Below, one piece after another: positions 5,995-64,000 of a stretch of DNA of 64,000 nt. The first letter of the stretch is position 1. Every line of letters begins with the position of its first letter. Source of the DNA: Heterotrichella gracilis. Taxonomy: Eukaryota; Sar; Xanthophyceae; Tribonematales; Xanthonemataceae. Both the position numbers and the translations under genes were made by a program. The notes below the pieces were generated by a model. It was not told where the DNA came from. It saw only the letters and a list, made by a program, of their open reading frames with translations, and did not search any database. The stretch is from the NCBI GenBank assembly GCA_032358255.1, contig JAULBX010017414.1, forward strand, positions 24,500-88,499. Direction: 5' to 3'.

Positions 5995-8900
5995 ATGGGT
6001 AGCCGCCAGGACCCCCCCACCGACTGGTCCCAGAAGCCTGTGTCTGCACTCAAGGCCTACCTGCGTGATGCTGGAGCGGACTCCAGCGGGTGCCTGGAGA
6101 AGGAGGACCTGGTGGCGCTGTGCACCAGGGTGGAGCAGGAGCAGGTCAGCAAAGGAAAACCCTAACCCTAACCCCACATGCAGCTATGCCGGGTATTTTC
6201 GAGCAGCGAGAATTGGAGCAGGGCTGCTTTTACTGTATGACAGGTAAAGTTGTAGGGTGCTAATCCTTTTGCATCCAAGCTGCGATCACCAACGCTGCGT
6301 GGTGGCGCCACAGCACCTGCCCTGGCTATATGAACACCGCTGCACACCTCCATTACACTGCAGGGTGGCGCCAGCAGCAGTAGCACACCCACCACCTTCC
6401 CAGCAAGGCCTGGCAGGGGCCACAGGGGCAGAATCAGCACCACCATCACCCCCACCACCACCACCACCAGCAGCGCACCCACCGCAGGACCTGCACGCCG
6501 CTTCAAGCAGGTTCTGCCCCCACCTCCACCTGAGCTGGTGATCCTGCTGAGAATGGTTGGGGGTGTCCCGCCAGGTGGCGCAACGGTAGCCACTGTGGAG
6601 CAGGCGATTGAAATTGTCAGCAGAGTGCCAACGGTGCGCGCTACCCTAAACCCTAAACCCTAAACCCTAAAGCGAGTGGTCCGTGCTGCTGGTCAGTTGG
6701 TTAAAAGCAGTGTAAAACCAATGCTTTTGCTCGTGCCCATTTTATGGCAGGACTAACAGTCAAAATCTAAAACAGCGTGCCTACTGCCTGTGCCATCTGA
6801 CAGGATTGGTCTTCATATTTTTTTTCAAATTTTTTTTGAAAAACAATTCTTTAAATTATTCCAGCGTGAGCAAAGCCCTGTTACGGCAGGGTGTGCAGTT
6901 GCACCCGTGACCGCCGTTGCAAGTGGGTATGTGGTCGTGATTGTGATTACCAGCTGCTGTGTGTGCGCAGGCAAGCATTCGGGCCAGAGCTTACACGTCC
7001 ATCCTGTCATGGCTGGAGGATTGCGCGGGCGATGATGACATCCGTGAGGAGCTGGCTGCAAGCCCCACCTGCACAGACTTCCTGGCCAAGCGCCTGAGGG
7101 AGCCGATTTCTGACTGCCAGGTTGGTCTGCCAAATAAATAGAAATAAATAAACAAACAAATTAACAAACAAATGTCTAAATAGATAAATAATTAAACTCC
7201 TCGTCTCAAGTATGATGGCGTCGGTTGAGGTATGACAGCCACAGTGGTCGTGTTGTTGCCCCATGCTGTCTAGAAGCCTGTCTCAATTCTGTGCCAATTT
7301 CTTCAAAACCGGTCGACGTTGCATCCTCGGACCCCAGACCAGATCTCTGCCGCGTACATCGTACATGCGTGGACAGGAAGTTGATGACAAATTTAAAACT
7401 AAACCACTTCAAGTGTACCCGGGTGAGGGCCACCCTCGTCGCATTTGTATTGGCATCTGTCATGCATACAGTCCTCATGTGCACGGAACATCCGGCCCTC
7501 CTGCATTCAACGCATCGGCTAATTATGGCGCCAGGCCTGTGGTATGCAAGGGACAATCAAGTGTTGCTTTGCATCGATTGGTATTCAGATCATCCCGTGC
7601 TCACACCCATGGATTTGACACTTCTGTGCTGTGGTGCTGCTGTGCAGGGTGCTGTCTTGTGCTGCTATGCATTGAGTGTAAGTGGGCTGGTCACCGCCCT
7701 CACAAGGTGTCGAGGCCCTTTCTACCCTTCTATCCCTCTCACCACCAAGCTGTATTGTCAAGGTATGGATGTATAATGTACACCCATAGTCACACCTGTG
7801 CGTCGCATTGCATTTCATCAAATTTACATTGATACACCGATCACAACCAATCATTATCCATGGTCACACCTGCAACTACACCCATGTTTAATGACATCTA
7901 TTGCCTTTGTCACCAGATTTTACGTCATTGGGTGCAGTGCACATAACCACACCTGGCGTAGACTTTGCCTCCCACATACTGTGGTTTCAAGCTGGAGAAT
8001 ACGCACCCAAACACCAGTATGACGTTAGCAGTCTGACTAGGACGAGGGTCCTCAAGAAGCTGGAAGCACTTTATCACAACACCCTAAACCCTAAACCTGC
8101 CATCCACTCATGCAAGAAAAGCACGCAGGCCATGCTCTTGCAGGGCTTGGGGGTTGCGAAGTCTGGTTTCCTGGCCAACGTCATTAGCCATTGCACTGCA
8201 TCCTGGATGGCTCCACCCTGGATGGCGGTGGTCCACTAGGAGAGCAAGTTTAATCTTGGATACTCCATCAATATTACTTCATGACTTCCACCCACTGCAG
8301 GGCGCAAAATAGGTGAAAATGGAGCAACAAGAGTACGCATGGCCAGCTTTGGCTAGCTAATTCCAGCTTGATTTATATGCGACTTCCCCTCCTGCAGGAC
8401 AGCGCTGCATTGGGCGTGCGGATGGAAATGAAATACCCAATGAAATAACCTTTGTGTGACTGCTCAATTTCGAAAAGTATATACTTATTTCCAGTGTGAG
8501 TTGTATGTGATATCCCCCCTGCAGGACACAGCAGTGGCTGTGCAGCTGGATAACTACATACTCAAGTCCAGTTTGACTGCTAAATCTCGACAAGTAGCTT
8601 ATTTCCAGGTTGGAATACATGTGATTTATTTTTCTGAAGGGCACAGCAGGGCGCGTGCGGATGGAGTCTCCACACTGGCTGGCCTTCAGTGGATGATCTG
8701 CCGGCAGGCACTGGAGGTGCTGACCAATGTGCTGGACTCCAACGCCCGCAGGGATTTGGCCGTCAGCACCGAGCCCAAGTTCCTGGAGAAGGTGCGAAGA
8801 AGGGGTTCATGCTAGGGTTCCTGATAATTGTGCGCCAATGCCTGGATGAGGTGCAAATTAGGGGGTGATACTAGGGTTCCTGAGTGAGTTGCGTGCAAAA

Positions 8901-11900
8901 TGCCTGGATAAGGTGCGAGGAACGGGTCGTTACATAGGTCCCCTAAGTAACTTGTAGGAAAAGTGTGTGTGAAACAGCTGGCTGCATACATAGCATTGCA
9001 AGTCCCAATACAGGGTTGTCGAGTGGTTACATACCAGTGGGAGTGTGTTTTATGGGTGACTCCTCGGTTGCTTATAATCTCCCTGTCTCTGGTCGGTTGA
9101 TCTAAAGGGTAACGGGTGAACACATGTGGTTGAGGTACCCATGGTGTTTTGGGGGCTAATCACATGATCCAATCCCCAGGTGTTTGTGCTCATCCCATGA
9201 TCCCATCCCCAGGTGAAGAGCGAGTTTGCGCAATTGGGGCATAACACCGAGGACGATATGTGGCAGACCCTGTACAATGCACTGGGGCTGTACGTGGCGC
9301 ATCCAAAGTATGGTGGAGAGGTAGGTTGCTTTGATTGGAAATGATTAGAAATGAGGGTCACCATCGCCCCCTGCGTGCCCCAGGCACGATGCCTTCCATC
9401 CCTTGGGGACCTCCTTACCCAAACTGCCTCAAAATATTCGATCCGGATTTGTGCAAGTTCCCAATCCCGCCTTGAGGTGGTCACCAATAGCACAAAACAA
9501 TTGTACCCACTAATGCTGCGGCTCATATTATTATATAATATCTGTTTGGCCGCATTATGATATTGTCACAATCCCCCGTATTCCCGGAAATCGTGTTATT
9601 GCAATAGGCCCTATTTGCAACAAGATCTCCCTCCCCTTGAAAAAGATCACCCTCTCTTCCTTGCAGCTGGCCGACGTGGTCATGGTTATATGTTCATTGG
9701 TGTGTCTGTGCACAAACACCCGATCACACCCTGATGTATTTGATTGCACACTGAGTGTGTCCCATCACACACCAACCTTTTGCAGATAGCTAACATGATC
9801 GTGGATGACACATTGATGTTGTTATACACCAACCCCTTGGGTGTGCCTGTATATCCTGATGATGTTTCGATCACACCATGATTATATCTGATCACACCGT
9901 GATTGTGTCCGATCACACCCTGATGTGCCTGTCCTTTCCCTGCAGATAGCTGACATGATCGTGGATGACACATTGCTGATGTTGTACCTCAACCCCCTGG
10001 GACCCAACCCCCTGGACCCATCCCAGCGAGATTTCCGCTGCGGCCACGCCCTCAGGGCGATACAGAACATGTTGGACGATATGCACGCCCAAGGTGCAGC
10101 ATACAAGAAACTCGTGGAGGCAGGTGGGTGGATGCGCAGCAAGGGGTGCAGGGTCTAGGGTTCAGAGTTTGCGGGGTGTGGGGTTTTGCAACAAAACCGG
10201 AACCCAAGCATTTTGTTCAGCGTCCACAAGCCCATCGAAGCATGTGGTGCTCAGCATGCATGCGTGTTACAAACGTGTCACAGAATACAGCTAAAGGGTC
10301 AAGCGATGGACATTGGCTCAACTTTAAAAGGGCCATGAGCTGGCTCTGCACCTAAAACCCTAAACCCTAAACCCCAACCAAGTGCATGCAGCCACTGCTG
10401 ACCGTTTTCACTCCCAGTTGGAAGTAAGTGATCTATCATTTTATATATTATTCCTTGCAAACATTGGGCCTCACCTGAAGGAGCTGGCACGGTGCAGTGC
10501 ATTAGCCTAACGTTAACGCCATTATCTTGATAAACAACTAACAACTGAATTACTTTGATGTATATGATTCCTTGCAGGCCTTGGGCCTTGCCTGAAGGAG
10601 CTCGCACGGTGCTGCGCATGCGGTTGTCTAATGTCAACTTATTATTTAGCAACACTTTCATTTACTTTATTGTAAATAATTCCTTGCAGGCATTGGGCCT
10701 CGCCTGAAGGAGCTTACGCGGTGCAGTGCAGTCCTTGTAGCAGAGAAGGCTGCGTGCTGCGTTGCCAACTTGGCGGGGGCCGACCCACTGGCCTTTTTTA
10801 GCAATGATGGGACTGCGCCATCGGCAGGGGTGGAGGCGGGGATGGCGGGGCTGAAGGTGGATGGGGTTGCAGGTGGGGGTGGGGGTGAGGGTGAAAATGG
10901 GTTTGAGAATAGGGGTGGGGCCCACCTGCGCCCGGGGGGGGGACGCAGGGTGTACTGGGTAGTGTGGTACCATATCAGCCACCGTTTGCCAACTCAAAAA
11001 GAAGGAAAAGAAGAAAAAGAAGAAAAAGAAAAATCTAAGAGGGTGGGGGTGGGGGTGTCTTATCATGGTTTCCCGTCCTCATGGTAGCTCTGTGTGGCGC
11101 CGCTGTTTAGGATACAGGGTTTAGGGTTTAGGGTAGGTCTGTGTGGCGCCGCTGTTTAGGGTTTAGGATTTAAGGTTTAGGGTAGGTCTGTGTGGTCTGA
11201 CTGCTAGAATGCTTGTGATGACCTAAGTAGCAGCATGGACAAGGGTGGCAAGGGTTTTCACTGGCATCTTTGCGCATGCAATGTCCCCAATACCCCAACT
11301 CGAAGCAAAGAGTCTCAGTGTCTGCAGGCAATCATTCAGCCTGACCTAGTACAATCCCTTGCCATCTCCCACCAGTCCCCCACCACACACACACCCTCCG
11401 CAGGTGCCAATCAAGATGGGGATTGGGAATGTACCCTTTTTGACACCAATCCCCCACATACACCTTCCGCAGGTGCCAATCAAAAATGGGGATTGGGAGT
11501 GTACTTTCTTATCACCAATTCCCCACACACCCTCCGCAGGTGCCAACCAAGACTGGGTGGCCACCATTTCCTGGGAGCTGTCCCGACTGGACACCCACCG
11601 CCCAGGCTTCTCTGGTCCCGATGCAGTGCTGGCGCTGAGCACCCTCCACAACCTTGCCGTGTCGCTGCCAGAGTGTGCACCAGGTAAGTGTAAGACAATG
11701 TCATGTATGGTCCCATGCATGGGGACTAGACTAGAATAATCCGCACATGGTGCTATTTCATTCATCTGCAGTGGCTTACTTAAAATCGGACTCACTTCAA
11801 ATTTGAGACTCTTGCAAAATCCTGGCATTTCACAATGGCATTGTTTCATTTCACAGCGTGGTGAAATAAAAGAATGCCATGTGATATGCAAGAGCCACTG

Positions 11901-14357
11901 TGATATGCCAGGATTTTGCCTCCACAACCTTAGTTGTGTTATTTGATGCCCTACAATCGAAGCTTTCCAGCCAAGCGCCGGCTTCGGGCATGTGCTGCAA
12001 ATCAACGCCAGCATGGCATGTCTGGTGCAGCCATGATTGCAGCGGGGGACACAGCTCACCTTACTGAGGGCTGCGGATACGCTTGGGGATGACAATGACG
12101 TGAAGCATGAAACCCTAAAACCCTAATATTTTGCCTGTTGCAGCCATGATAGCAGCTGGTGCACTCCCCATCATCCTGCGGGCCGCGGACAAGCTTGGGG
12201 ACGATGAGGAGGTTGCCGATTACATCAACCACGAGTCGGATGAACGCACCAAGGGCTTTGTGGTCATGGCGTTCACCACAATTGGGCGACCGCTGCTCAA
12301 CCTTCTGTCCCAGATGCCTGCCCGACTGGTTACAAGAGAGGTGATCCTACACCCTAAACCCCAAATCGGTAACTGTAAACCCTGAACTATTGAACCTGCT
12401 GTCCAAGATGCCTGCTCAACTGGTAAAATGGGAGGTGCTCCCGCTGCCCTCACCGCTAAACCGTAAACTTTCGAATATGCTGCCTTATGGTTTGCCCCGG
12501 GGACCCTCTGCTACCTCCCTTCATCCCCCTCTGCCATGGCTCTGGTCACTTTTTGCGATTGGGAGAACCCAACCCCGCAATGCCATGCATGCCACAGACC
12601 GAGCCATTTGCCTCCCAGCGGCTGCTGCTGGCAATTTAACCCTAAACCCTAAACTTCAAATCCTACTATAATCACCATGGCTCCATGCCACTGACCAAGC
12701 CTTTTGCCTCCCAGCGGCCGCTGCTGGCGCCAAAACCCGAAACCCTCAACCTTAAAACGTCCACCCGTCCACCGCCGCAGACAGAGCCGCTTGCCTCCCT
12801 GCCTCAAACCCTACAGCTTAAACCCTACAGCTTACACCCTGATTTAATCACCTCGCCCCCATGCCGCAGACGGAGCCGTTTGCCACCCAGCGGCCGCTGC
12901 TGGTGCCGCGCTTGCGCAAGTACATGCTGCACCCAAGCAGGGAGGTCCAGGAGCTGGCACTGGAGGTGCTGCTGGGGGTGCTGTGCATCCATCCCAAGTC
13001 GCTGGAGGAGCTGACTGAGCTGTGCCATAGCAACCCTGTCAAGGTGGGACGTGCATCCGCAGCTGACATGACTTAGCAATGATTTATCTTAGAAATGTTC
13101 ATGGATTCATCCTGCGTCAGGAATCCAGGTAAGGTGAGGGAGCGTCACAGGAGCTGCACACATATATGTGTATATATTTGTGTATTATATAAATTAAATC
13201 GTAGGTGGAGCTGACTGAGCTGTGCCACAGCAAGCCTGTCAAGGTGGGGGGTGCGCCCCGCAGCTGATATGAATTAGCAACGATTACTCAAAATGATTTT
13301 ATTTAAGTGAGGATGTTATTTAAATTTTTGTTCAACACAAACATACTAGTTGACTTTTACTCTACTAGGGTGAGTACAGGCCCTGCAGCTTGGACTACAT
13401 ATATGCACATTGTTGTTTTCATCCTGTCCCCATAACTCGCATACGGGCATTTCTAATCCCATGGGGAGCATGCATGTAACTAGCTAACTACCCAGTTAGT
13501 CAAGTGTCGTTTGTAATTTAACAAATGGAGTGCATATACGTAACCAGCTAACTACCCAGTTAGTCATCTGTCATATGTAATTCAACGAATGGAGTGCATG
13601 CATGTAACCAGTTAACTACCCAGTACGTCAACTGCCATATGCAATTTAACGAATGGAGTGCATGCATTTATTACACTCAATGCATTTGCATATGTTTAAT
13701 GTTTGGATTTTTGTACATACTGACAGATCCTGCATGCAGGCGCGCATTGTGGCACGCCTGGTGGATCCTTCGGGGCTGCTCAAATTTGACGCTGATTACG
13801 TGGCCAGGATGCCTGACCCCCCCTTTGACATGCACTTTGCCGGCTACTCCGACATGAGTGAGCTGAAGATGTGCGACAATTGCGGCCACCACAACCACTT
13901 TTTGAGGGTCAGAGGGGCGCAGAAGATTAAGCTGAGGCAGTGCTCAGGTGCGGCATGCAGGGTTTGGGGTTAAAGGGGTGGGAGCACCAGGCATTTTAAT
14001 CACTTTTGCAGATGACCGTGGTTTACCTAAACCTTGAACACAATAGCAAGCGGAGACAGTGCACTGGTGAGGCATGGATGGGGCTGCGACGAGGCTCCCA
14101 GCTCAGCTGGTGTAGGGCTTTCCCCTAAACCCTAAACACCTCAGTCCCGGTTGAAACGGCTGACGGGGTTGCAGTCTTGGGCCCTAGGCCACAGGTTTTG
14201 CTCCTTTGCACACAGGTACGAGTCTCGCTCCCCCCCATGGATTGCAGGTTGCTACCAGCGTCGCTACTGCAGCCGCGACTGCCAGGTGGCGCACTGGAAG
14301 GTGCACAAAAAGATGTGCGGCAAAGCGCCTCCACAACCATCAGGGCAGGATGTTTGA
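5995..14357 (+). CDS. MYND zinc-finger protein with SAP-like N-terminus and armadillo-like middle (paralog A)
   Basis: Thirteen exons: 5995-6144, 6364-6633, 6971-7120, 7648-7762, 8640-8791, 9213-9320, 9946-10123, 10690-10872, 11540-11683, 12144-12340, 12870-13043, 13740-13947, 14248-14357. They total 2139 nt, 712 aa. Exon 1 encodes a compact helical motif (LKAYLRDAGADSSGCLEKEDLV) like the SAP-type fold of MANF C-terminal and RNF34 proteins. Exon 2 is Ser/Thr/Pro-rich. Exons 3-11 encode Leu/Ala-rich helices (LRAAD, LGDDEE, LAGADPLAF) suggesting armadillo/HEAT repeats. Exons 12-13 encode a complete MYND zinc finger: CDNC, QCSGC, YCSRDC, HWKVHKKMC. MYND domains bind proline-rich peptides and often act in transcriptional repression or protein assembly. 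The substrate here is unknown. Paralog B repeats every exon boundary and phase. Introns carry many partial exon copies. The least certain acceptor is that of exon 5 (8640), supported by alignment to B. Confidence 0.88.
6643..6671 (+). repeat. Telomere-type heptamer array in MYND A intron 2
   Basis: Four consecutive CCCTAAA units start 10 bp after the exon 2 donor. This is an interstitial plant-type telomere repeat, placed like many others in this window, next to an exon border. Confidence 0.9.
8290..8550 (+). repeat. Degraded copies of MYND A exon 5 start in the preceding intron
   Basis: Acceptor-like CTGCAG followed by exon-5-like sequence occurs near 8295, 8397 and 8519. The 8397 copy retains GGGCGTGCGGATGGA almost exactly as in the true exon start at 8640. 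The copies have lost the reading frame. Confidence 0.6.
8837..8913 (+). repeat. Two copies of MYND A exon 5 end with donor
   Basis: The true exon ends CCTGGAGAAG|GTGCG at 8791. The intron then repeats CCTGGATGAG|GTGC (boundary 8850) and CCTGGATAAG|GTGCG (boundary 8912), each with flanking TAGGGTTCCTGA. The donor is copied with the exon end. Confidence 0.7.
9715..9930 (+). repeat. GATCACACCCTGATG-type repeats and a copy of exon 7 start (MYND A intron 6)
   Basis: The copy at 9781-9841 begins TGCAGATAGCTAACATGATCG and parallels the true exon 7 start at 9946 for about 55 bp, with small indels. It lies among short repeats of the type GATCACACCCTGATG. Confidence 0.75.
10351..10376 (+). repeat. Telomere-type heptamers in MYND A intron 7
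   Basis: Three near-perfect CCCTAAA units, interstitial and within the intron between exons 7 and 8. Confidence 0.85.
10449..10622 (+). repeat. Two upstream copies of MYND A exon 8 start
   Basis: ATTCCTTGCA followed by exon-8-like sequence (TTGGGCCT..CCTGAAGGAGCT..CACGGTGC) occurs at 10449-10503 and 10567-10622. The third and true copy starts at 10690. Each unit is about 115 bp and contains the acceptor plus about 45 bp of exon. Confidence 0.85.
11088..11195 (+). repeat. Tandem units containing TTTAGGG in MYND A intron 8
   Basis: The unit TCTGTGTGGCGCCGCTGTTTAG is followed by TTTAGGG-like heptamers and repeats at about 11088 and 11138, with a partial third copy at 11187. Confidence 0.8.
11379..11530 (+). 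repeat. Two upstream copies of MYND A exon 9 acceptor and start
   Basis: Units of about 75 bp contain CCTCCGCAGGTGCCAA or a close variant, then AAATGGGGATTGGGA. They precede the real acceptor (exon from 11540). Each retains an intact-looking CAG|GT. Confidence 0.85.
11813..11919 (+). repeat. Imperfect inverted repeat (hairpin) in MYND A intron 9
   Basis: The left arm starts GCAAAATCCTGGCATTTCAC and the right arm ends with its complement (TGCCAGGATTTTGC). About 40 bp pair on each side, with one 18-nt bulge in the right arm. It could be a small MITE or a hairpin RNA precursor. Confidence 0.7.
12031..12092 (+). repeat. Copy of MYND A exon 10 start
   Basis: CAG|CCATGATTGCAGCGGG.. through GATGACAATGACG parallels the true exon 10 start at 12144. 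A linker with AAACCCTAATATTTTGCCTG joins it to the true acceptor. A matching unit occurs at the same junction in paralog B. Confidence 0.8.
12388..12433 (+). repeat. Copy of MYND A exon 10 end with donor
   Basis: The sequence AACCTGCTGTCCAAGATGCC and onward repeats the last 45 bp of exon 10, followed by GAG|GTGCTC as a decoy donor. The true boundary is at 12340. Confidence 0.75.
12598..12803 (+). repeat. Three upstream copies of MYND A exon 11 start
   Basis: Copies of the exon 11 start (GAGCC.TTTGCC.CCCAGCGG.CGCTGCTGG) lie at 12598-12632, 12692-12730 and 12779-12803. The real exon starts at 12870. Telomere-like CCCTAAA stands between copies. Confidence 0.85.
13205..13243 (+). repeat. Copy of MYND A exon 11 end with donor
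   Basis: GTGGAGCTGACTGAGCTGTG.. to GTCAAG|GTGGGG repeats the last 38 bp of exon 11 (boundary 13043), about 200 bp downstream, with nearly perfect identity. Confidence 0.85.
14046..14076 (+). repeat. Degraded copy of MYND A exon 12 end
   Basis: AGCGGAGACAGTGCACTGGTGAGG resembles the exon 12 end AGCTGAGGCAGTGCTCAG|GTGCGG. It is a weak match. Confidence 0.4.
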
Positions 14358-28067: not shown

Positions 28068-28128
<61 letters not shown>

Positions 28129-38627: not shown

Positions 38628-38760
38628 CTACCCCGGCTTGTGCGATCGCTTGCCACTCGAACTCTTCCCCTTCCCATTGGCCGACCCCCCAGCCTTCCCC
38701 ACCCCGCCCCTGCCGCTCCCCTTGGCAGACGCAGCAGGCACCTTCCCCCTACTACTCCCC

Positions 38761-38796
<36 letters not shown>

Positions 38797-43085: not shown

Positions 43086-44824
<1,739 letters not shown>

Positions 44825-46544: not shown

Positions 46545-47242
46545 CAGCCATACACGGCCAGCAGCAAACACTCGTCCTCAAAGCGCTCATGCATAAGCAA
46601 CGTGCAACATGCTAGGCACAGGGACACACCACCCCCAAATTTGCTCAGCAGTCCCCTAATGTCACACCACAGCAACGGAACGATAGTTCTAAGCACACTT
46701 GTGAGACGGAAGAGTGAGCATGTACCTCCTAATCAGGTCTTCTTGTTTACAACTTTCTCTCAGGCTTACAACTTTTGAGGGTTGGTTATCTCCCCGATTG
46801 GATTTCCTGCAGTACTCCACCTGGTCCATTGCAGTGGCAAAATTCAAACACCGAGTTTAAACGAACGCTCGACACGAACAGCGAACAACGCCCCGCTGCC
46901 CAGTTCAGTAATAACCTAAGTGGCCTGCTGCGTGTTGGAACTGCGTGAGAGCACCTTGCACACGAGCTGCTGCAGAAACGTTCGAAGCACCCAATGCATG
47001 CGTGACCCAACTTGCTTCAAACTCTAAGCAGGCCACGCTCCAGCCTTTGTGGTGGTTTTGTTGACGCAGTCATACCCTCTGAGTATTTATAGGGCTGTCT
47101 TAACTCAAAACTCACGGACGGCAGTCAGTAAAGGCAGCAGCCCTAGTACCAGCCCCGTTCTAGGACAGGTGTTCATATCTTGGAAGAGGGAAGCAGGATG
47201 CGTGACCACACAGGGAGCAAAGTTTAGACCCACTTGCTGCAA
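46545..47242. promoter_or_regulatory. Divergent promoter, CAF1 and DNA polymerase epsilon
   Basis: About 700 bp between the start codons. TATTTATA at 47084-47091 precedes the polymerase ATG by about 155 bp and may be its TATA element. Confidence 0.4.
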
Positions 47243-53200: not shown

Positions 53201-56200
53201 ATCGCACCATTCCCGCAGCCTCGCAATGCGAATTAGCCACCCACCCTCCAGGCACACATTCCCACTCCCACCACCCCAGGTTCGCGACTCCATCTGCGCC
53301 TCCCTCGCCTCACTGCGCGACACCCCCCACCGCGAGGAGCCCCCCCTCATCTACCATCTGGACGTGGCGGCAATGTACCCAAACATCATCCTCACAAACA
53401 GGTGCGGTTGTGCGCACTGCTGGCCAGCCATGACTGTGATGCCAGTTCCACTTCGTTCTTCACCGTTTCCCCCTCTTGGCTGGTGACATATGCGCGTCAT
53501 TTTGGACCCTTTTCCCCCTCACCTTGTGTCCTCCCTGACAACCCACACCCACTCCGACCAACCCCACCCCGACCCCCACTCCCCACACCAGGCTGCAGCC
53601 CTCCGCATTGTGACACCCTGAAAAAAAAACTAAAAATGTAGTGAAGTATTTACATTTACATGTTGTTACTTTTTTTAATACTTATCATAGAACAAACAAA
53701 TTGCCACCAAATTTAATCAATTTATAGCTAATTCATCAACATCCTTCCACCCCACCCGCAGGCTGCAGCCCCCTGCCATCGTGACTGAGCGTGACTGCGC
53801 CGCCTGCGACTTCAACCACCCCGGCAAGACCTGCCTGCGCAGCATGGAGTGGGTGTGGAGGGGGGAGAACTACGTGGCATCGGCTGCGGAGTACCACTCG
53901 CTCAAGGCACAGGTGGGGGGCGGGAGTTATATCTTTTCAGTAGAAAACTAGGATACGCACCTTGACTACATGCACCTTAACTTCACATGTACTATTAGTT
54001 GGTTGGAAGGAAAGACTATAAATGGCATCCAGATCTTTAAGAGCTAGATTACAGTCAGATTTTCAGTCAGAAAACAGGATTACGCTAATTAGCTGATTAT
54101 GTCTGTACTGGGAACCATTCTCATCAGTCCCCTTTCCTCCCCGTTTCAGCTTGAGCTTGAGCCCTTCCCTGGCGAGGCCCCTGGGGATCCCCCGCGCACT
54201 TTCCAGCAGCTGCCCAAGGAGGAGGCGGACAAGGCGCTCAAGGAGAGGCTCAAGAAGTACTGCCAAAAGGTAGGGGTTGCAACCCCGTGGACAGGGGTTT
54301 GATAGGGTTCGGGAGGGTTTTGAGATGGTTTGTAGGGTAATCAGGTGGAGTGCCGAACTGGCAAGGCGCTCAAGGAGCAGCTCAAAAATACTGCCAGAAG
54401 GTGGGGGTTGGGCAGGGTTTGGTAGGGATTCAAGAGTGGTTTGTGGGGTGCTTGGTGCCAAGCGGTCAAGATGTTCAAGAAGTGGCCCAAGAAGAACTGC
54501 CAAAAGGTGACTGGGTTGGGTAGGGTTTTGCTAGGGTGTTGGTAGGGTGGAGTGCCGGCAGACAAGGCGCTCAAGGACAGGCTTAAGAAGTACTGTCAAG
54601 ATGTGGGTTTGGACAGGGCTTCATAAGGTGGGTTGCGTTAGGGTTTTGACAGGGTTTAAAGGGTTTTGAGGTGGAGTAAAGAGTGGGCAGGGCGTTCTAG
54701 AAGTCAGAGTGTTGCGCTGGGCTAATATATAATTCCCAGTCTTCGATGATGGATGATGGTGGTGCTGAACAACCCCTTATTCTTGGTGGCATGCATACAA
54801 CATTGGCACCACTCAATCTTCACTAAATCTACACCCCCCACCCATCACCACTACCCACCACCTCTGCAGGTGTACAAGCGGGTGCTTGACAAGCCCGTGA
54901 GTGAGAAGCGCGTGGCTGGGGTGTGCATGCGTGAGAACCCATTCTACGTGGACACGGTGCTTGCCTTCAGGGACAGGCGGTACGAGTACAAGGGGCTCAA
55001 CAAGAAGTGGAAGGGAAAGCTGGACGAGGCAAAGGTGGGGAGGAAACAGACATGTGTAGGATGTAGGGTGTAGGGTGTAGGGTGTAGGGGTGGGCGTACA
55101 GAGGTGGTGGTGGGGATGGTCTCCTTTTCTCGTGCATAGTATTATCGCGCCCTATCCTTTGTCCAGTTTTTTGTACCTGTCTGACCAATTGATGCACAGA
55201 AGTGGTTACATTACGAAAACTTCAATGAGAAGTCTCGTCCCTCCCCTACCCCTTGACCCTAATACCCCCTCGTAGGCCCCTTGCCACCCAGAAAGCCCCT
55301 GACCTGTGCGTGCGTACCATGCGCCATCACTTGAACATTTCATCAACTTCTGCACGCTACATGCAGAGTAACCGCAGAAACAATGCTCTGCATCCCCCTA
55401 CTATGCACCCCCGACCCGCAACCTCCCCTCCCGCAGGCCTCCGGCAACCCCCTTGCCATCCAGGAAGCTGCCGACCTGTGCGTGGTGTACAACTTCAATA
55501 CACACCATACCTTGAAAAGCTACATTACGCTTCCAAATTGGCACGTGACATGCTGGAAAACTGTGAGTCAATACTCTGCAGCCCCTACTGACACCCCTAA
55601 CCTGAATTCTCCCCCTCCCGCAGGCCTCTGGCAACCCCCTCGCCATCCAGGAGGCAGCCGACCTGTGCGTGGTGTACGACAGCCTGCAGCTTGCGCACAA
55701 GTGCATCCTCAACTCCTTCTACGGATACGTCATGCGCAGGGGGGCAAGGTGGTATTCGATGGAGATGGCGGGGGTGGTCACATACACAGGGGCGCAGATC
55801 ATCCAGGTGGGTTTTAGGGTTTTAGGGTTTTAGGGTTTCATCTGGGAGGGTCGTCCACGTGTGGATGCTAGTAGGCACACACGGAAGGGTTGTGCATCAC
55901 GTGATTGTGGCCCTTGTCCTACGGTGCGTCCATGGCCTTTGAGATGCAGGATTGAGCTGAATGTGATGCAACCATTTATTCATATGAACTCCTAATCCTT
56001 ATGCATGCATGCTTTCCATGACCACCAATCTGATCAATACACTCGCTTCCCACAACCACCATATCCTGCCCAGACATGCTCTCAATGAATCATTACCCCC
56101 CTACCCCCCACTGCAGCGCGCCTGCGGCCTGGTTGAGCAGCTAGGCAAGCCCCTGGAGCTGGACACTGACGGGATCTGGTGCTGCCTGCCCGCGTCATTC

Positions 56201-59200
56201 CCGGAAAACTTCAAGGTGGGAAATTCGGGGTTTGTTAAAGGGTTTTTGGGACCTGGTGCTGCCTGCCAGCGTCATTCTCAGGGAACAGTAGGGTTGATGC
56301 TCATGTGATCAGGAAAGTCGTTCTCAACCACACCCTACTTGCAATTCAAGGAAATCCAGCGCTGGGTTTCACTCCCCTTTGGGCGCGTTCCCTTGTTCCC
56401 TTCGCACCATAGCATCCCATCCCACCCACCCCCACACGCACCTGATCCCCATCCACTCCACTCACCTCCCGCAGTTCAAGAACCGCAGCGGCAAGGAGCT
56501 CAATGCCAGCTACCCCAGCATGTATACCCATGTTCTCACCCCATGTTCCCACCCCCGCGCAGTTCAAGAACCGCAGCGGCAAGGAGCTCAAGGTGAGCTA
56601 CCCCTGCGTGATGCTCAACGTCATGCTGGCAAAGCAAAATGCAAACGACCAGTACCAGACGCTGGTGGACCCCGTGAGGCACACCTATGCAACAGAGTCA
56701 AGGATGTCCATCGAGTTTGAGGTGGATGGGCCATACAAGGTGCGCGTGGTTGGGTGATTATTCTAGAGACTTGTTTGGGGTGTTTACCTAGACAGTGAAC
56801 CGTAGGCCTTGACCCCTAGACCCTGGCGGATATGCTGTTAGTGTAAAATGTTCAATTGAGGTTTTGTGAGATGGCATGCCCCGTATCAACGACCTTCAAT
56901 ACTCCCTAGTATTAAAGGATTTAGGGTCGTAATGTCTAGGGTATCCCACACCGCCCACCAGAAACCCTAATACCTACAGCCCAAACCCTAAACCCTAAAC
57001 CCTACACCCCCAGGCCATGGTCCTTCCTGCGGCCCGCGAGGTGGGCAAGACCATCAACAAGCGATACGGGGTTTCCAACTTTGACGGCTCACTCGCGGAG
57101 CTCAAGAGCTTTGAGCTCAAACACGCGCTGCCCTAAAACACCCAACCCCTAAAACCCTAAGACTCCAAATTGCCAAAACCTCTCTTTTGAAATTGCCTTT
57201 TCCCAGGCCATGGTCCTTCCTGCGGCCCGCGAGGAGGGCAAGACCATCAAGAAGCGATACGCGGTGTTCAATTTCGACGGCTCCCTGGCCGAGCTCAAGG
57301 GCTTTGAGCTCAAGCGGCGCGGCGAGCTCAAGCTGATCAAGGTGTTCCAAGGGGAGGTGTTTGAGAAGTTCCTGGCGGGGGACACGCTGGCGGAGTGCTA
57401 CGATGCAGTGGCCGCGGTGGCAAACAGGTGGCTGGATATGCTGGACAGCAGGGTGAGAATGTATTAAAAACCCTAAACCCTACACCATCCCGCCTGTAGC
57501 GGTGGAAGTACAGAGGTGGTCGTCTTTGAGGCCCCTCGTTCTGACCCAAAATTACCCTGGCCTTTCAACACCCTCTTGGGAACCCCCAGGACGACAATCT
57601 TACTGCCAATCGTGCTCATTTGGAAATCCCTAGACCCTAAACCCTCCTGTAGGGCGACGACCTGACCGACTCGGAGCTCATCGCGCTCATCTCCGAGTCG
57701 AGCGTGATGAGCAAGACCCTGGAGGAGTATGAGGGGAGGAAATCGTCGCCGCTCACCACCGCAAGGAGGCTGGCGCAGTTCCTGGGTAAGGGTTTTGCTG
57801 CAAGGGTTTGGTGTAGGGTGTAGGGTTTAGGGTTTAGTGTTTGGGTACCCCTGTGCAAGGAGACTGGCGCAGTTCCTGGGTACATCGTTCTATATGTGCG
57901 CACGTACATGTGTGCATGGGTCCCTTGTAAAGAAGATTGTGCACCAGTCTGAGGGGGTAGGTATGCACATCATCGCCAAAGGTGACCCCCCCAAAAAAAC
58001 TAAACCTGGCCTAAACACTAACCCATCACCCCAGGTGACGAGCGGCTGAAGGACAAGGGCCTGGTGTGTAACTACATCATTGCCCGACGGCCCGAGAGCC
58101 AGCCCACCAGTGAGCGCGCCATACCCACAGCCATCTTTGCAACAGAGCCCTCAGTGGCTCGGACCTACTTGCGGAGGTGGTGCGGTGGGGAGGTGGGAGG
58201 CGGAGGTGCGTGGGGTGGGGAGGGGTGGGTGCTTTGGAAGTGGGGGTGTGGCAGGGGGTAATGCTGCATGAGCAAAAGCCCTTGCTTTCCCATGGCACAT
58301 GTGCAAGGCCCCTTCAGCATTTCCCACCAGTGCCAAGGCCTGCAATGTGAATTTGCACAAAGATGTGGTACCCTGCCTCTTTCCAAATTTTCCAGCGCCC
58401 ACTGACGTAGTAATCCCCATCCCCAGAGGATCCCAGCCAGATGCCCAACGTGCGCAACATAGTGGACTGGGACTACTACCGGGAGCGCCTGGGATCGGCG
58501 ATTCAGAAGATCATCACCATCCCCGCGGCCATGCAGCGCATCCCCAACCCAGTGCCACGTGTCAAGCACCCAGACTGGCTGTACAAGCAGGTACGGGGTA
58601 AAGAAAGCCTGAACCCTAATATCCTAACTTTGCGTGAAGAAAGCCTTAACCCTAATATCCGCCTGCCATGGGTCATGCACCCAACTTTGCGCCCATGTGT
58701 GAAGCACCCAGACTGGCTGCGCAAGCAGGTAAAGAAAGAGGGTGAACAACCCTAGAATTGTAACCTGAACCTTCTACCCAATGGCCTGCAAATTGCTTGT
58801 ACAGCCACCAACGACATCCAAATGTCTTCCCTGAAGGTCGGGAGAAGAACGATCCCTCCAGCAGCAGAAGCTGACCAGCAGTATTCCAGGAGTACTTGCA
58901 ATTTATTTATAATGTCCCTAAAAATGTTGAAATCCCCCTTTTCCCAGGTGCGCGAGAAGAACGACCCGTTCCAGCAGCAGAAGCTGACCAGCATAATGCC
59001 AGAAAGATTCTTAGTTTCCCTGAAATTTCCCTGAAATGTCAAATCCCCCCTTTCCCAGGTGCGGGAGAAGAACGACCCCTTCCAGCAGCAGAAGCTGACC
59101 AGCATGTTTGCAAAGGCAAGCGCTGCAGGGGACGGGGGGCGGAGGGAGCAAGGGGGCGAAGAGGAAGACGCGGAGGAGGGAGGGGAGGAAGAGGCGGGGG

Positions 59201-62200
59201 CCAGCCCTGGGGCGGCGGCTGCTGCCGCACTGGACATTGAGGTGGGAATTGGGGGGAATTGTCTGCATTTGTGGTTTGTGTTTTTTGGTGTAGGCAGTTA
59301 TCACTGCATCTCTTGTGCATTGCCATCGGGCGGTCGATGCATCTTGAACCTGAAACAGAATTGGGCTAAAGGCGCCTGGCTCTTTGACGCATACCAAGGC
59401 ATGCTGACCTGGATGCACGCTGCCCATACTCCCCCTTTGGGTTTTCCTATTTTGCTAATATCTCCCCTTTGTATGGCAGGACATGGCGACAGGTGGCGGC
59501 GGGGCACGGCCGCCCCTCGCACCCAGGGGCAAGGCGCGAAAGGGGGCGGCGCGCGCAATGGCACCCCCACAGGAGAACCCTGGGGATGGCCAGGGTCCAT
59601 CTTCATCCCCGGGACAGGATCAGGAGAACGCTGGGGATTTGCACAATCGCGGGGGCGCCCCGCCCACCCCTGAGCAGCCCTGCAATGACAGGTGCGCGCA
59701 GTAGGGTTTTAGGGTTTAGGGCTTGGGATGTTATGGTAGCAGAAAGTACCGCTGCACTTGTGAAATGCTACAATGTATTCTCCCTGTGATGAATATTGGT
59801 CAGTAAGCCCCTTATTAACCATATAGTGGCAGACAAACACACCGCCGCCACCTCTTGCGCCTTGAACCTTTGCCAAAACCCTATCCCAACCCCCCTCGTC
59901 CCACACCGCACCCACCCCACCCCACCTGCCTTTATGTACTCATGCCTACAATGATCCCTCAACAGGGGCGAGGAGTTTGGGCGGTGGCTGGCTACCCAGA
60001 AGCGCAAGTGGCGGTCCAAGCGGGAGTCGCGCAAGTGCCAGCGCCTGGAGGAAGCAAAGAAAAAGAAACGGGAGGAGCGGGGGGGGGCTGTGCCGCTTGC
60101 ACCCCACATCCAGCCAGGTAGGGGGCACAAATGCGTACATGCCGTGTATGGTCTGGCTTTTCTCTTTGCACCAAATGTGACAATGAATTAGGGTTGATCT
60201 TGTCGCCACCAAAGTTTGGGATGAAGCAGGTACCAGGCTTCTTTCCCGCAAGTTTCTGCCACAAAACGTGAAGAGAGGAAGGTGATAGCCATGGCAATGT
60301 GTGCGAATTTATCTTTTGCTGACCCTGGGCTCAAATTCGCAGGGGCCAATGTGGGCGCCTTCTTCCGGCAGCAGGGCGCCAGCGCCACCCACGCGCATTG
60401 GCAGATAGTGCAGCTGGCACCCACAAACACCCCGGGGATGTTCAAGGTACGCACTGCAATTTGGACGTGTAATATGGTGTGCGGTTAATGCACTGTGAAA
60501 GAATTGGTCATGCCATGAAATCCACAAGAGCGCATCCATGCGGCCTGATTAATCAAATGACCACAAAATGGAGTACGGTGCCACATACCTGTCACGATGC
60601 CAATCAAGGGTCGCCGCTTCATGCACATGCGCATGCGCATCGCCCGCGCACCCGCCTCACCCCCACCCTCACCCCCACCCCTGCAGCTGTGGGCGCTTGT
60701 GGATGGGCGCATGTACGGCGTGTCCCTGCATGTGCCCCGCACCTACTACGTCAACCACAGACTGGCGCCTGAGGAGGTGGAGGGGGCCGGGTGGGGGCGC
60801 AAGGTGGTGCGCACGCTGTATGGCCCACAGCCAGCGGTCAATCTGTATGAGGTGAGTGGATGGGAATGTGTCAACATTTATGCTGCAACCGAAGCAAACT
60901 ACAACTGACGATGATTTGGCTTTTAACTGAACAGTCACAGATTATGTAGCAAGCATACTGTACTACGCCCTCAACAATAAATTTGAGGCCGGTTTGGGTT
61001 TCTGAAAAGATGGGGTGAAAGCCCCTGTTAATCAGAATAAGCAAATGATCAAAATTTAGAAGAATAAGTTGGCCTCAACCCTAACTCTTGAACCCTGCCT
61101 TTGCACAGGTTGTTATGAACGAGAAGCAACTGCAGCGCGAAGAATCCACCACTGCCAAAACCCTCCCCAAACCCTCATACCCCACACCCGAAACCCTAAA
61201 TCCAACCCTCTACAGGCTGTTGTGGGCGAGGAGCAGCTGCAGCGCGACGCATCCACCACTGGCAAAACCCTCCCCAAACCCTAATTCCCCACGCCCAAAA
61301 CCCTCCCTGAACCCTAAACCCTACTTCTCAACCCTCCACAGGTGGTTGTGGACGAGGAGCAGCTGCAGCGCGACGCCTCCACCACCGCGCTGCGCCTCAC
61401 CACCCCCGACGTGCTGGGCGTGTTTGAGGACAGGCTGCCCCTGGCGCTCTCCGCAGCCCTCCACATGGGCTGCGTGGCCTCGGTCGCCCCCGACTTCCGC
61501 CACAAATCCATGTCTGACACCTTCGAACTGGGTGAGCTCGTGATGAAAACCACCACCGAGTGCGGGTATTTGGGCGAGGAAGGGGGGCCGGAGGGGCTGG
61601 GGCGGCTTCGCCACGTGGCGGTGTACCACTCGATGGACGCGGGGGGGGCTGCAAGGGGGATGGCGGGGGTGTGGGTGCCGATGGACGGGCGGGTGCTGGT
61701 GGTGGTGGTGAATGGGGCTGCCAGGGGGGCGAGGGAGGTGACCGAGGGGGGGCTGGGGAGGAGCTGGCAGGAGGCGCACAGGCAGGAGGTGCTGCTATAC
61801 CCTAAACCCTTGACCTAAGCTAGACCCTACAGCACGAACCCTATAGGACCCTAAGCGAGACCCAAGTTCTGAAGACCACAATGCGAACAAGCCCTGCGCC
61901 TCCACCTGTCTGTGTTTTGAGCCATGTAGTGTGCACCATTTCTGACCTTGCTTATATAGCGCGAAAGGTCTGTGCACAGAAATCCCCGCTCACTGTGCGC
62001 CTTTCAACCTCTGCAGGACCCTGTGGAGGAACTCGGGTTTCTAGGTTGACGTGATGGACACGCGCACATGAAATGCACTAGATCCTACGCATTTTAGAAA
62101 CCCCTGCTCACGGCATGCCCATTCCCCGCCGCAGGGTTCCGAGCAGATCCCTGAGGTTGTGTATGACATTGTGTATGTGCGCACATGGGAGCAGGCAGCG

Positions 62201-63980
62201 CGCAGGCTGCAGGACACACTGGCTGACCTCAGGTGAGGGGACCTACAAGGGAACCCTAACAAAAACCTAAATCCTAACTGACTGGGTGCCCTGATTATTG
62301 GCTTTGTTGGTAGCAGTACTAAGCTACCTGCCAGTGGCATGTGTAGGGTTCGAGTTCAGGGCTCGCTGCTCACCCTAGTGGAGAGCCCAGTCGGCTTTAT
62401 GGTTCCCACGAGAGGGTTTCCACAAGAGGTCGCCACTCTAGGCTTTCTCAACCCAATTCCCTGCTTCCAGGGAGCGCTACCGCGGCCCGCTGCTTACCCT
62501 AGTGGAGGGTCCAGGCGGCGCTGAGCGGTTGTCTGCAGACGTGCCCATGCTGCGCCAGATGGCGTGCGCAGACATCCCCTCCAACACCGCAGACGCATCC
62601 TACCCCCCCCTGGGCTGGCAGGCGCGCGCAGCCAAGATCACAGCATTCAGGCTGGCGGTGGCAACGGCATGGCTCAAGGTGAGGGGGCCACCGCTGGGGT
62701 ATTGCTGTACATATAAGAGTGCAATTGAGCTCAACAACGTACCATGGGAAATATTGCTGCAAGGCCTAGCAGCGCCGCTACACCCCATGCCATGCATCAC
62801 CCCACCCCCACCCCCACCATAGCACCACATGACTGTCACCCAGCTACACCCCCGCCCACTGCCCTTCTACACCTTTGACCACAGCACCCCTCCCCTTCCA
62901 CCCTCTACCTTCCATCGCAGGAGCGCGTGGGCGTGGCCCGCGATGCACACGTACCCCTGGCCGCCCTGAGCCCCGACTGGGTGCTCACCACACCCCACGC
63001 CCTACCTCCCCATGCCATGCAACCACACCCAATGCCATGCCATGCCATCCACATGTAAAACGGAAGAAAGTGACAGATCCCTAAACTATGAACACCCCAC
63101 CATCGCAGGAGCGCGTGGGAGTGGCCCGCTACGCACACGTCCCCCTCGCCGCCCTGGGCCCCGACTGGGTCCTCACCACCGCCGACGCCCTCTACGCGCG
63201 CTGCCTGCGCCAAGCCAAGCACCTGGTGTGGGCTGTAGACCCCGCGCTACCTGCACTTGATCAATCCCAGGAGGACCACTGTGCGGATGCGGTGTGGCTG
63301 GAGGAGGTTGCGGGGGTGGAGGTGTGCCGGCCGGGCGCCTACCGCGCGGTGTGCGTGCGGCTCAAGGTGTTCCACCTGGCGGTGAACGCGGTGGCGCAGG
63401 TGAGGAGGGGTTGTGGGGGTTCAGCTGGAAATTTTGCTTGTACTGTGGGCCTGCTGTGTTCATACAATGTAGTATGACTCATAGTATGTGCCTGTGATCA
63501 TGCTATGCTCATGCTGTGACAATGCTGTGATCGTGCTGTGGGATGCTCCTATGGTGCTCCTGTGCCCCGATGGCCATGAGCGAATCGCTTTACGCATGCT
63601 GCACCCATGCTGTGACAGTACTGCGATCTTGCTGCGCGCAATGCTGCTCCCATACCCCGCGCTTCACCATGCAGCATCCACAACCCCTTTCCTCTCCCCT
63701 CATCCCTCACACCCTCTCACCCACCCCCCAGGCCGGCGCGCTGGGCGAGCTGGAGGGCTTTGCCGCCCTGGACGACGCCACCACGGGCTGCGGCCCCGCC
63801 TTCAAGGTCCTCAAGACCCTGGTCACCAACTGGCTGGCGGATGCCGTGCAGCACGGGAACAAGTACGCGGATGCGCTGCTGCACGGGCTGTACAGGTGGC
63901 TGTCCACGCCCGCGGCCGCCATGCACAGCCCCGCGCTGCTGCGGGCTGTGCAGCAGCTGATGCGCAAGATGCTGCTGCTG
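47243..63980 (+). CDS. POLE: DNA polymerase epsilon catalytic subunit (partial, C-terminus beyond window)
   Basis: Thirty-three exons, 1903 codons. Ends: 47243-47322, 47820-47979, 48337-48426, 48675-48896, 49217-49513, 49811-49933, 50129-50240, 50640-50820, 51267-51375, 51714-51971, 52460-52627, 52923-53012, 53280-53401, 53762-53912, 54150-54269, 54870-55034, 55624-55806, 56117-56215, 56563-56739, 57207-57452, 57653-57785, 58035-58184, 58427-58590, 59059-59241, 59480-59691, 59966-60117, 60343-60446, 60687-60851, 61342-61788, 62135-62232, 62471-62678, 63109-63399, 63732-63980. A Gly/Arg-rich start leads to [16 protein letters not shown]. Exonuclease motifs: [29 protein letters not shown]. Polymerase motifs: [35 protein letters not shown]. 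It is the leading-strand replicase with 3'-5' proofreading. The inactive second half begins near exon 26 ([14 protein letters not shown]). The C-terminal zinc fingers lie outside. The exon 29 donor (GAG|GTGCTG) is the weakest junction. Confidence 0.95.
49645..49671 (+). repeat. Copy of POLE exon 5 segment
   Basis: TTCCAGACCGGCATGGATATGCGGG repeats an exon 5 stretch (TTCCAGACCGACGTGGATGTGCGG) near that exon's 3' end. Confidence 0.7.
50025..50085 (+). repeat. Copy of POLE exon 7 start
   Basis: GTTGATGATCTATTACATGC and GGGCCTTCCTCATCAT mirror the exon 7 start at 50129. Confidence 0.75.
50881..50931 (+). repeat. Copy of POLE exon 8 end with donor
   Basis: GAGCAGATCTCGTTCAG|GTGGGTGGGTGG recurs exactly 89 bp after the true boundary (50820), donor included. 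A faint third copy may follow at about 50932-50970. Confidence 0.85.
52025..52371 (+). repeat. Three downstream copies of POLE exon 10 end with donors
   Basis: The last 62 bp of exon 10 (GAGGTGCTGCGCAAGG... to TACAAG|GTAGG) recur at 52025-52086, 52140-52202 and, degraded, 52312-52371. The first copy keeps the GTAGG donor intact. TTTAGGGTTTGG-type spacers separate the copies. Confidence 0.9.
53592..53615 (+). repeat. Copy of POLE exon 14 start
   Basis: CAGGCTGCAGCCCTCCGCATTGTGAC resembles the true exon 14 start at 53762 (GCTGCAGCCCCCTGCCATCGTGAC). Confidence 0.7.
54359..54602 (+). repeat. Three downstream copies of POLE exon 15 end
   Basis: Copies at 54359-54400, 54456-54506 and 54557-54602 resemble GACAAGGCGCTCAAGGAGAG..TACTGCCAAAAG and each is followed by GT. 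GGTAGGGTTT spacers lie between. The true exon ends at 54269. Confidence 0.85.
55274..55497 (+). repeat. Two upstream copies of POLE exon 17 start
   Basis: Copies at 55274-55318 (degraded) and 55438-55497 (near-perfect, with CCGCAG acceptor and the same reading frame through CTGTGCGTGGTGTACAA) precede the real exon at 55624. Confidence 0.85.
55810..55838 (+). repeat. Telomere-like TTTTAGGG units in POLE intron 17
   Basis: Three consecutive TTTTAGGG octamers start 4 bp after the exon 17 boundary at 55806. Confidence 0.85.
56248..56283 (+). repeat. Copy of POLE exon 18 segment
   Basis: ACCTGGTGCTGCCTGCCAGC and GTCATTC parallel the exon 18 stretch coding WCCLPASF. Confidence 0.65.
56473..56523 (+). 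repeat. Upstream copy of POLE exon 19 start
   Basis: GCAGTTCAAGAACCGCAGCG.. is identical over about 30 bp to the real exon 19 start at 56563 and shares the acceptor. Confidence 0.85.
56981..57134 (+). repeat. Telomere heptamers plus 120-bp copy of POLE exon 20 start
   Basis: CCCTAAA units at 56981-57004 are followed at 57014-57134 by a copy of the first 120 bp of exon 20 (GCCATGGTCCTTCCTGCGGC and onward), about 85% identical, ending in a stop after CTGCCC. The true exon starts at 57207. Confidence 0.9.
57840..57890 (+). repeat. Copy of POLE exon 21 end
   Basis: AAGGAGACTGGCGCAGTTCC then TGGGTA repeats the last 25 bp of exon 21 (true boundary 57785) just after a TTTAGGG patch. Confidence 0.75.
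58703..58728 (+). repeat. Copy of POLE exon 23 end with donor
   Basis: AAGCACCCAGACTGGCTG then CGCAAGCAG|GTAAAG repeats the last 27 bp of exon 23 (boundary 58590). Confidence 0.8.
58837..58995 (+). repeat. Two upstream copies of POLE exon 24 start
   Basis: GAGAAGAACGACCCGTTCCA-type sequence with CAGCAGCAGAAGCTGACCAG occurs at 58837-58881 and 58949-58995, before the true exon at 59059. The second copy has the full CCCAG|GTGCG acceptor and the frame. Confidence 0.9.
61109..61262 (+). repeat. Two upstream copies of POLE exon 29 start
   Basis: GTTGTTATGAACGAGAAGCA.. (61109) and GCTGTTGTGGGCGAGGAGCA.. (61216) mirror the real exon 29 start at 61342, each after a TNCACAG or CTACAG acceptor and with CCCTAAA-like linkers. 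Confidence 0.9.
62360..62405 (+). repeat. Copy of POLE exon 31 segment
   Basis: CTGCTCACCCTAGTGGAGAG resembles exon 31 CTGCTTACCCTAGTGGAGGG at 62489. Confidence 0.7.
62921..62992 (+). repeat. Copy of POLE exon 32 start
   Basis: GAGCGCGTGGGCGTGGCCCG.. to GTGCTCACCA copies about 70 bp of exon 32 (true start 63109) with its CGCAG acceptor and reading frame. Confidence 0.9.
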
Positions 63981-64000
63981 GTGGGTGGGGGTGGGGGTGG

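Follow-up and report, generated by a model that had tools for sequence, protein, structure and literature searches.

Gene Content of the Window

The stretch analyzed here, referred to as the window, comprises 64,000 nucleotides of the xanthophyte Heterotrichella gracilis and is part of contig C175 in a genome of 68.5 Mb and 903 contigs. Introns of several of its genes contain diverged partial copies of the exons beside them. We call a copy of an adjacent exon edge within an intron an echo, and distinguish START echoes, which copy an exon start, from END echoes, which copy an exon end. Nine genes were modelled from gene-finder output that was then curated by hand: DDX, MYND-A, MYND-B, G26, MAN, G39, CK2, CAF1, and POLE. 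The final models contain 95 introns, all of the GT-AG type, and have open reading frames; some exon ends are possibly misplaced by about 10 bp. MYND-A (positions 5995–14357, 13 exons) and MYND-B (15800–25245, 13 exons), both on the forward strand, are tandem paralogs with the same exon layout that share 443 of 708 aligned residues, and MYND-A matches the Pfam model zf-MYND. The two genes are a natural pair for dating intron changes. POLE (47243–64000, forward strand), encoding the catalytic subunit of DNA polymerase epsilon, has 33 exons in the window and a 3' end beyond it. The POLE model without echoes aligns to the solved Pol epsilon chain 7pfo_B, which we take to be the human protein, over residues 82–1228 (1456 bits) and 1343–1912 (237 bits), and the part of the alignment that was inspected, up to about residue 1040, contains no insert at the echo junctions. 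The end of POLE exon 4 is an example of a misplaced border: because it has three extra residues relative to 7pfo_B, it was probably modelled about 10 bp too far. From their translations we take DDX to be a DEAD-box helicase, MAN to be mannanase-like, G39 to be bromodomain-like, and CK2 to be CK2-alpha, and CAF1 is presumably the gene of that name; a Pfam search with 481 residues of G26 gave no match.

Exon-Edge Copies in the Introns of the Window

When 100-bp exon edges were compared with the adjacent intron on both strands, using 100 dinucleotide shuffles each, 23 of 190 junction sides exceeded z>6 in the sense orientation and none of 190 did so in antisense; under the looser criterion of beating all shuffles, the counts were 28 sense and 7 antisense. 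A banded self-alignment that uses no annotation, with offsets limited to 25–450 bp, returned 70 pairs at a score of at least 100, against 0.33 per shuffled window (a BLASTN self-comparison missed most of the near copies). These pairs comprise 43 echoes, 1 echo with fewer than 10 exonic bp, 19 intron-only pairs (some of which sit within echo arrays), 3 mixed pairs, 2 exon-only pairs, and 2 intergenic pairs. The 44 echo pairs correspond to 38 sides (20 START and 18 END) in 33 of the 95 introns and in six genes, with 31 sides surviving at a score of at least 130 and 26 at a score of at least 160. A preliminary description of the window had reported such copies at more than 25 junctions, and both the existence of the copies and this number hold up in our counts. 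Its statement that at least four genes are affected stands in a weaker form: six genes carry echoes, but 35 of the 38 sides belong to POLE (16), MYND-A (11), and MYND-B (8), and G26, MAN, and G39 each contribute just one copy, whose score equals the threshold of 100. Its figure of up to six copies was not reached in our counts, which gave at most four further copies (MYND-B intron 4), followed by three in POLE introns 10 and 15. Banded self-alignment at a score of at least 100 detected no echoes in DDX, CK2, or CAF1. Echo offsets range from 33 to 402 bp, introns with echoes are longer than the others (median 476 vs. 254 bp), and the recognizable exon-derived share of intron bases is 9.9% in POLE, 6.0% in MYND-A, and 4.6% in MYND-B.

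All echoes of the two MYND genes lie on the forward strand, and some are accompanied, at the joints between copies, by tracts that resemble a telomere repeat (TTTAGGG, or CCCTAAA when reversed), which are discussed below. In MYND-A, START echoes of exon 5 occupy intron 4 (8358–8625) upstream of the real exon (8640–8791), and intron 5 contains an END echo of exon 5 (8832–8965) and a weak START echo of exon 6 with 3 exonic bp only (9155–9182). The acceptor of exon 5 was modelled as AAG (8637–8640); the upstream echoes retain CAG, and the equivalent MYND-B acceptor is CAG. Further START echoes are those of exon 7 in intron 6 (9781–9841), exon 8 in intron 7 (two copies, 10444–10618), exon 9 in intron 8 (11383–11490, with a 69-bp unit), and exon 10 in intron 9 (12019–12101, with a telomere-like tract at the joint). 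Intron 10 combines an END echo of exon 10 (12393–12469) with START echoes of exon 11 that have CCCTAAA-type tracts at their joints (12588–12802), and END echoes of exons 11 and 12 follow in intron 11 (13196–13285) and intron 12 (14039–14081). The eight sides of MYND-B include the array of four further copies of the end of exon 4 in intron 4 (17901–18102), END echoes in intron 6 (20143–20197) and intron 7 (20969–21004), two START echoes of exon 10 in intron 9 (22492–22697), and a START echo of exon 11 in intron 10 (23145–23192, score 100). Its intron 11 holds both an END echo of exon 11 (23584–23641) and a START echo of exon 12 (24045–24123), and two END echoes of exon 12 are found in intron 12 (24575–24745), the first preceded by a TTTAGGG-type tract.

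The echoes of POLE, likewise on the forward strand, lie in introns 5 to 31. END echoes are located in intron 5 (49565–49669, preceded by a TTTAGGG tract), intron 8 (50882–51068), intron 10 (three copies of a 116-bp unit with TTTAGGG-type tract at the joints, 52025–52373), intron 15 (three copies, 54362–54703), intron 18 (56248–56286), intron 21 (57855–57882), and intron 23 (58680–58731). START echoes are located in intron 6 (50018–50073, with a CCCTAAA-type tract at the joint), intron 13 (53581–53614, weak, score 100), intron 16 (two copies, 55266–55493), intron 18 (56463–56522), intron 19 (57010–57131, 88% identical over 117 exonic bp and with a CCCTAAA-type tract at the joint), intron 23 (two copies of a 111-bp unit, 58835–58994), intron 28 (two copies, 61073–61304, with a CCCTAAA-type tract at one joint), intron 30 (62360–62395), and intron 31 (62912–63003). 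The three remaining echoes, on the reverse strand, are weak and score 100: a START echo in G26 intron 4 (29531–29560) and END echoes in MAN intron 3 (36295–36336) and G39 intron 3 (39455–39499, z 5.3). A perfect (TA)28 microsatellite also lies within a G26 intron (28070–28125).

Geometry, Decay, and Age of the Copies

Copies of exon starts lie upstream of their exon and copies of exon ends lie downstream. With 60-bp edges, exons of at least 120 bp, and introns longer than 60 bp, 24 of 147 comparisons exceeded z>6 on the predicted side and none of 147 did so on the wrong side, where none reached z>5 and a single case had z 4.0. Non-adjacent introns of the same gene gave 0 of 236 at z>6 and one at z 4.8. 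The similarity begins precisely on the border base in 25 of 39 echo hits and no more than 5 bases from it in 36, and in most hits it continues into the intron, so that the duplicated unit contains the border. The units are arranged head to tail, as in a tandem duplication spanning the exon–intron border, although their exact ends are uncertain where, as is often the case, the intron part has decayed. The exonic part of the echoes measures 3–117 bp. In one stretch elsewhere in the genome (L002), a 213-bp unit appears by eye to contain, nested in its intron part, a second echo of that exon end, which is shorter and older. We dropped a splicing-linked mechanism that would stop copies at the splice site, as the intron part of the L002 unit looks homologous by eye, if full of indels. 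The real exon comes last among the copies of an exon start and first among those of an exon end; no other geometry would allow splicing to discard the spares without altering the protein.

The copies differ from their exons by 5–32%, with indels. At codon positions 1, 2, and 3, the proportion of differing sites is 0.139, 0.129, and 0.231, respectively (1897 exonic sites, 44 pairs); in the intron part it is 0.203 (1902 sites, 44 pairs). None of the 22 gaps within exonic sequence has a length divisible by three. Decay is one-sided where the exon is constrained and about twice as large where it is unconstrained; the copies themselves decay as if unconstrained. Border-spanning units, sidedness, and decay together give good support to the view of the preliminary description that exon–intron borders were repeatedly duplicated in tandem, with START copies upstream and END copies downstream as it had stated.

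The age of some echoes was compared by pairwise identities between the MYND paralogs, with no tree. The START echo of MYND-A intron 9 is identical at 66 of 81 positions to one MYND-B echo, versus 60 of 81 to its own exon; that MYND-B intron 9 echo matches the exon it copies equally well (67/81). The MYND-B intron 10 echo is identical at 38 and 39 of 51 positions to two MYND-A echoes, versus 32 of 51 to its own exon, and those two MYND-A intron 10 echoes are no further from the MYND-A exon (39/51 and 41/51). Tentatively, these identities suggest that the intron 9 and intron 10 echoes could predate the MYND gene duplication. The END echo of MYND-A intron 11, identical at 52 of 60 positions to its own exon versus 39 of 54 to the MYND-B echo, looks younger than the duplication, with the same caution. 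The sets of echoes differ between the two genes.

Echoes across the Genome

Beyond the window we sampled twenty 10-kb stretches (L002–L021) with a gene finder trained on the window, and later four fresh stretches; gene models outside the window are therefore predictions. After removal of introns longer than 1500 bp and edges shorter than 20 bp, the twenty stretches provided 382 sides and 195 introns, among which the shuffle test at z>6 identified 39 sides in sense and 2 in antisense, an excess over shuffles that extends the observation from the window. These echoes occur in 12 of 26 genes, 10 of 20 stretches, and 35 of 195 introns. The four fresh stretches contributed 2 of 87 sides in sense and 0 in antisense, in two of four genes, which brings the pooled figure to 41 of 469 sides. 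Eight of the twelve echo genes were put to Pfam, several after trimming of the models by hand, and all eight were recognized: CAF1B, ORC5, an ammonium transporter, methionyl-tRNA synthetase, ADA2, RPS9, a ubiquitin hydrolase, and RPL18A. Border duplication thus recurs across the genome, and it is clustered in certain genes (permutation p of about 0.0002, or 0.0003 when weighted by intron length); none of intron length, intron GC, and GC3 accounts for which genes carry echoes. Self-alignment of the twenty stretches, with predicted exons, yielded 69 echo, 19 exon-only, 15 intergenic, and 13 intron-only pairs, and some of the exon-only and echo pairs are short-period, low-complexity coding repeats. 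The gene finder took in-frame echoes for exons in POLE and in RPS9 (L020); in the latter, it read the in-frame copy of an exon end as an additional exon of 20 residues, and the best solved uS4 chain has one copy.

We also asked where tandem clusters fall when they are detected from intron sequence alone, with a uniform expectation of 15–30% border-spanning clusters; the sample used here consisted of predicted exons and introns of up to 800 bp in the first twenty stretches. The observed share is higher, at 52–61%: the window has 14 border-spanning clusters among 27 (p=0.011), and the sample has 11 among 18 (p=4e-4). Masking 25 bp beside the borders gave 12 of 23 in the window (expected 0.203, p=7e-4) and 9 of 15 in the sample (expected 0.155, p=1e-4), and under an alternative rule for calling a cluster border-spanning the window had 13 of 27 (p=0.03) and the sample 12 of 21 (p=3e-5). 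Part of this excess may come from protection of sequence near the borders against deletion.

Telomere Repeats at the Duplication Joints

The telomere repeat of this genome is TTTAGGG: seven contigs contain (TTTAGGG)6 within 280 bases of the contig start, and a telomerase RNA-binding domain is encoded in the genome. The same (TTTAGGG)6 sequence also occurs away from a contig start at C109:52096 and C120:45692. Telomere-like tracts, built from nine-base telomere-like words, number 43 in the 33.4 kb of introns of the window (1.85 expected from shuffles), 0 in its exons, and 2 in its 10.5 kb of intergenic sequence; the corresponding numbers for the sample are 80 in 94.7 kb of introns, 0 in exons, and 14 in 53.5 kb of intergenic sequence. 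Tracts are present in 45 of 70 echo introns versus 43 of 160 others (introns of at least 250 bp; p=1.5e-7), and the association is also seen within genes (odds ratio 3.1, z 2.8). The echo rate of a gene correlates with its number of tracts per intron (rho 0.75 over 34 genes; this was one of four features examined), and genes outside the window taken alone give rho 0.79 (n=25, p=3e-6).

The pattern at the joints was first spotted by eye in the window and tested afterwards, and the sample is independent of the origin of the idea. Using 40-bp segments on the intron side and, as threshold, the 95th percentile of random intron segments, we found that 26 of 65 joints reach the threshold with TTTAGGG on the 3' end of the intron fragment, compared with 4.4 expected from position-matched segments of non-echo introns. 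The corresponding counts are 6 of 65 for the opposite orientation and 11 of 65 for the border side. The sample alone gives 9 of 31 joints versus 1.9 expected (4 in the opposite orientation), and the window alone gives 17 of 34 versus 2.2 expected (2 in the opposite orientation). The telomere repeat of this genome is associated with the joints and has a constant orientation there. At 19 strongly tract-positive joints, the homologous outer place lacks a tract in 13 cases and has one in 6. Tracts of TTTAGGG type are under-represented in the final third of introns (window, 0 of 19; sample, 9 of 37), which is not so for tracts of CCCTAAA type (10 of 24 and 26 of 43). Selection on splicing may set this orientation, because TTTAG resembles a 3' splice site. 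Base composition follows a gradient in window introns of at least 150 bp, from 35% G and 17% C in the first decile to 17% G and 36% C in the last, which may permit pairing of intron ends or may be a footprint of the repeat.

Origin of the Echoes

The echoes are, in our view, best explained as relics of tandem duplications that straddled exon–intron borders and whose spare copies are hidden by splicing; we infer that the duplications arose during repair of staggered breaks, with fill-in and with telomere repeats as filler. Two nearby nicks on opposite strands would create a staggered break, fill-in of its ends would duplicate the stretch between the nicks, and telomerase, or captured telomere DNA, would often add TTTAGGG before end joining. 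Duplications within exons would be purged, and those crossing a border would survive with the observed sidedness because splicing hides the spare copies. By analogy with the systems considered below, fill-in and telomeric insertion together would account for the tandem arrangement, the telomere repeats at the joints, and the correlation at the level of genes.

Several observations weigh against this explanation. Telomere-like sequence is absent, at the threshold used, from 39 of the 65 joints, and a joint beats random segments of the same intron in 68% of comparisons on average, where chance would give 50%. At 6 of the 19 tract-positive joints the tract was part of the duplicated unit, because it is present at the homologous outer place too, and the role of the tract as filler rests on 13 versus 3 discordant cases (p=0.02), with several joints coming from the same arrays. 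The model does not explain the excess of border-spanning clusters, and purging from exons is not shown in the sample, given its 19 exon-only pairs. Arrays do not consistently have their less similar, or their older, copy on the outside, and the model therefore has to allow for arrays that grew or shrank later. The echo rate is also much lower in the four fresh stretches (2 of 87 sides). Because the within-intron joint control and the exon-only pairs weaken parts of the proposed mechanism, we assign this explanation a probability of about 0.65. For the same reasons we regard as possible, with the odds somewhat against it, the stronger proposal that telomerase or capture of telomere fragments at staggered breaks in genes is a main engine of intron growth in this lineage, each repair leaving an exon-edge copy and a TTTAGGG scar and splicing filtering which scars survive.

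Telomere-like or G-rich tracts that already existed in the introns could instead have acted as fragile sites, where slippage or unequal exchange produced the duplications with no telomerase at the break. The six joints with a tract at the outer place as well are in line with this, as are outer segments that reach the threshold in 9 of 58 comparisons, the richness of introns in G at the 5' end and in C at the 3' end, and arrays of up to five copies that behave like minisatellites. However, 13 of the 19 joints have the tract at the joint only, and in the 58 comparisons joint-only cases outnumber outer-only cases 13 to 3 (p=0.02), leading us to consider fragile tracts an unlikely origin, albeit one with some claim to attention. 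Another possibility is that neutral tandem duplication occurs at a high rate everywhere and that borders stand out since copies spanning exon and intron stay recognizable longer than copies within introns, with no special role for borders or for telomere repeats. Intron-only duplications do exist (11 to 14 clusters in the window, depending on masking), as do intergenic pairs (2 in 10.5 kb in the window and 15 in the sample), and exonic parts of 3–117 bp are what random breakpoints would be expected to leave. Border-spanning clusters are nevertheless above the uniform expectation (12 of 23 in the window and 9 of 15 in the sample), and generic duplication does not predict telomere repeats at the joints; we judge it improbable.

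The preliminary description had suggested that the extra splice sites could serve as decoys, as alternative sites, or as raw material for new introns, and we found no support for any of these roles. Splice dinucleotides are retained in 34 of 39 echoes versus 25.6 expected from the square of identity, an expectation that is underestimated given that a shift of ±3 bp was allowed. The best candidate for a used echo is the END echo of POLE intron 23, the sole echo of 34 that is in frame and open, whose donor would add 138 in-frame open bases (58591–58728). The substitution and gap patterns, however, match unconstrained decay and reveal no constraint on the copies as functional exons or splice sites; 28 of 34 echo sites are weaker than their real counterparts; splicing at the copies would bring a stop codon into the inserted segment in 28 of the 34 and shift the frame in 5 others; and the two MYND paralogs have different echo sets. 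Judged by sequence features, the echoes thus give no sign of function, and selection for decoy or alternative sites is highly improbable. An assembly artefact, in which haplotypes or reads were falsely joined in tandem, may account for single cases but has a negligible chance of being the general cause given the 5–32% divergence of the copies with indels, the START-upstream and END-downstream placement, and just 2 exon-only pairs in the window, though the sample with predicted exons has 19.

Relation to Known Systems

In potato, a single tandem duplication crossing a border produced a new intron (PMC4974935); the echoes are similar in that the duplication crosses an existing border and copies the splice signals too, and differ in that many events affect many genes and all lie within existing introns. 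We recognized no new introns, the echoes being inside introns between ordinary exons. Intron gain is reviewed more broadly elsewhere (PMC3443670), with cases from Drosophila (PMC2891723). Interstitial telomeric repeats of primates, rodents, and horse were inserted at breaks, sometimes with direct duplication at staggered breaks, and simple duplications are a minority there (6 of 130 rodent, 4 of 25 primate, and 3 of 66 horse loci; PMC2246262, PMC7215372). Our joints resemble these loci in having a telomere repeat flanked by direct copies of the sequence at the break, which is the case at 26 of the 65 joints and not at the other 39; unlike in the mammalian cases, the copies were found first and the joint repeats second. 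Small tandem duplications arise in mouse and human cells from fill-in by CST/Pol alpha-primase at 3' overhangs (PMC8355091). As in that system, fill-in at a staggered break would duplicate the stretch between nicks, whereas many units here exceed 100 bp. Introner elements also alter intron content across a genome (PMC9860276), but echoes copy the neighboring exon, and related sequence at unrelated sites, as expected of introners or other transposable elements, was not seen (0 of 236 non-adjacent introns of the same gene at z>6). The openly licensed literature that we searched yielded nothing on dense exon-edge copies in introns or on telomere repeats at their joints. The ingredients are already known; the density of the copies and the telomere-marked joints are new insofar as they did not appear in this literature.

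Implications

Because gene finders mistake in-frame echoes for exons, protein databases may contain false repeats from genomes of this kind. The process lengthens introns stepwise, and with the intact exon as a reference, a neutral clock can be used to date individual events. A testable molecular cause is suggested by the telomere repeats at the joints. If telomerase or telomere capture is indeed a main engine of intron growth in this lineage, the introns would constitute a readable and datable record of past chromosome breaks.

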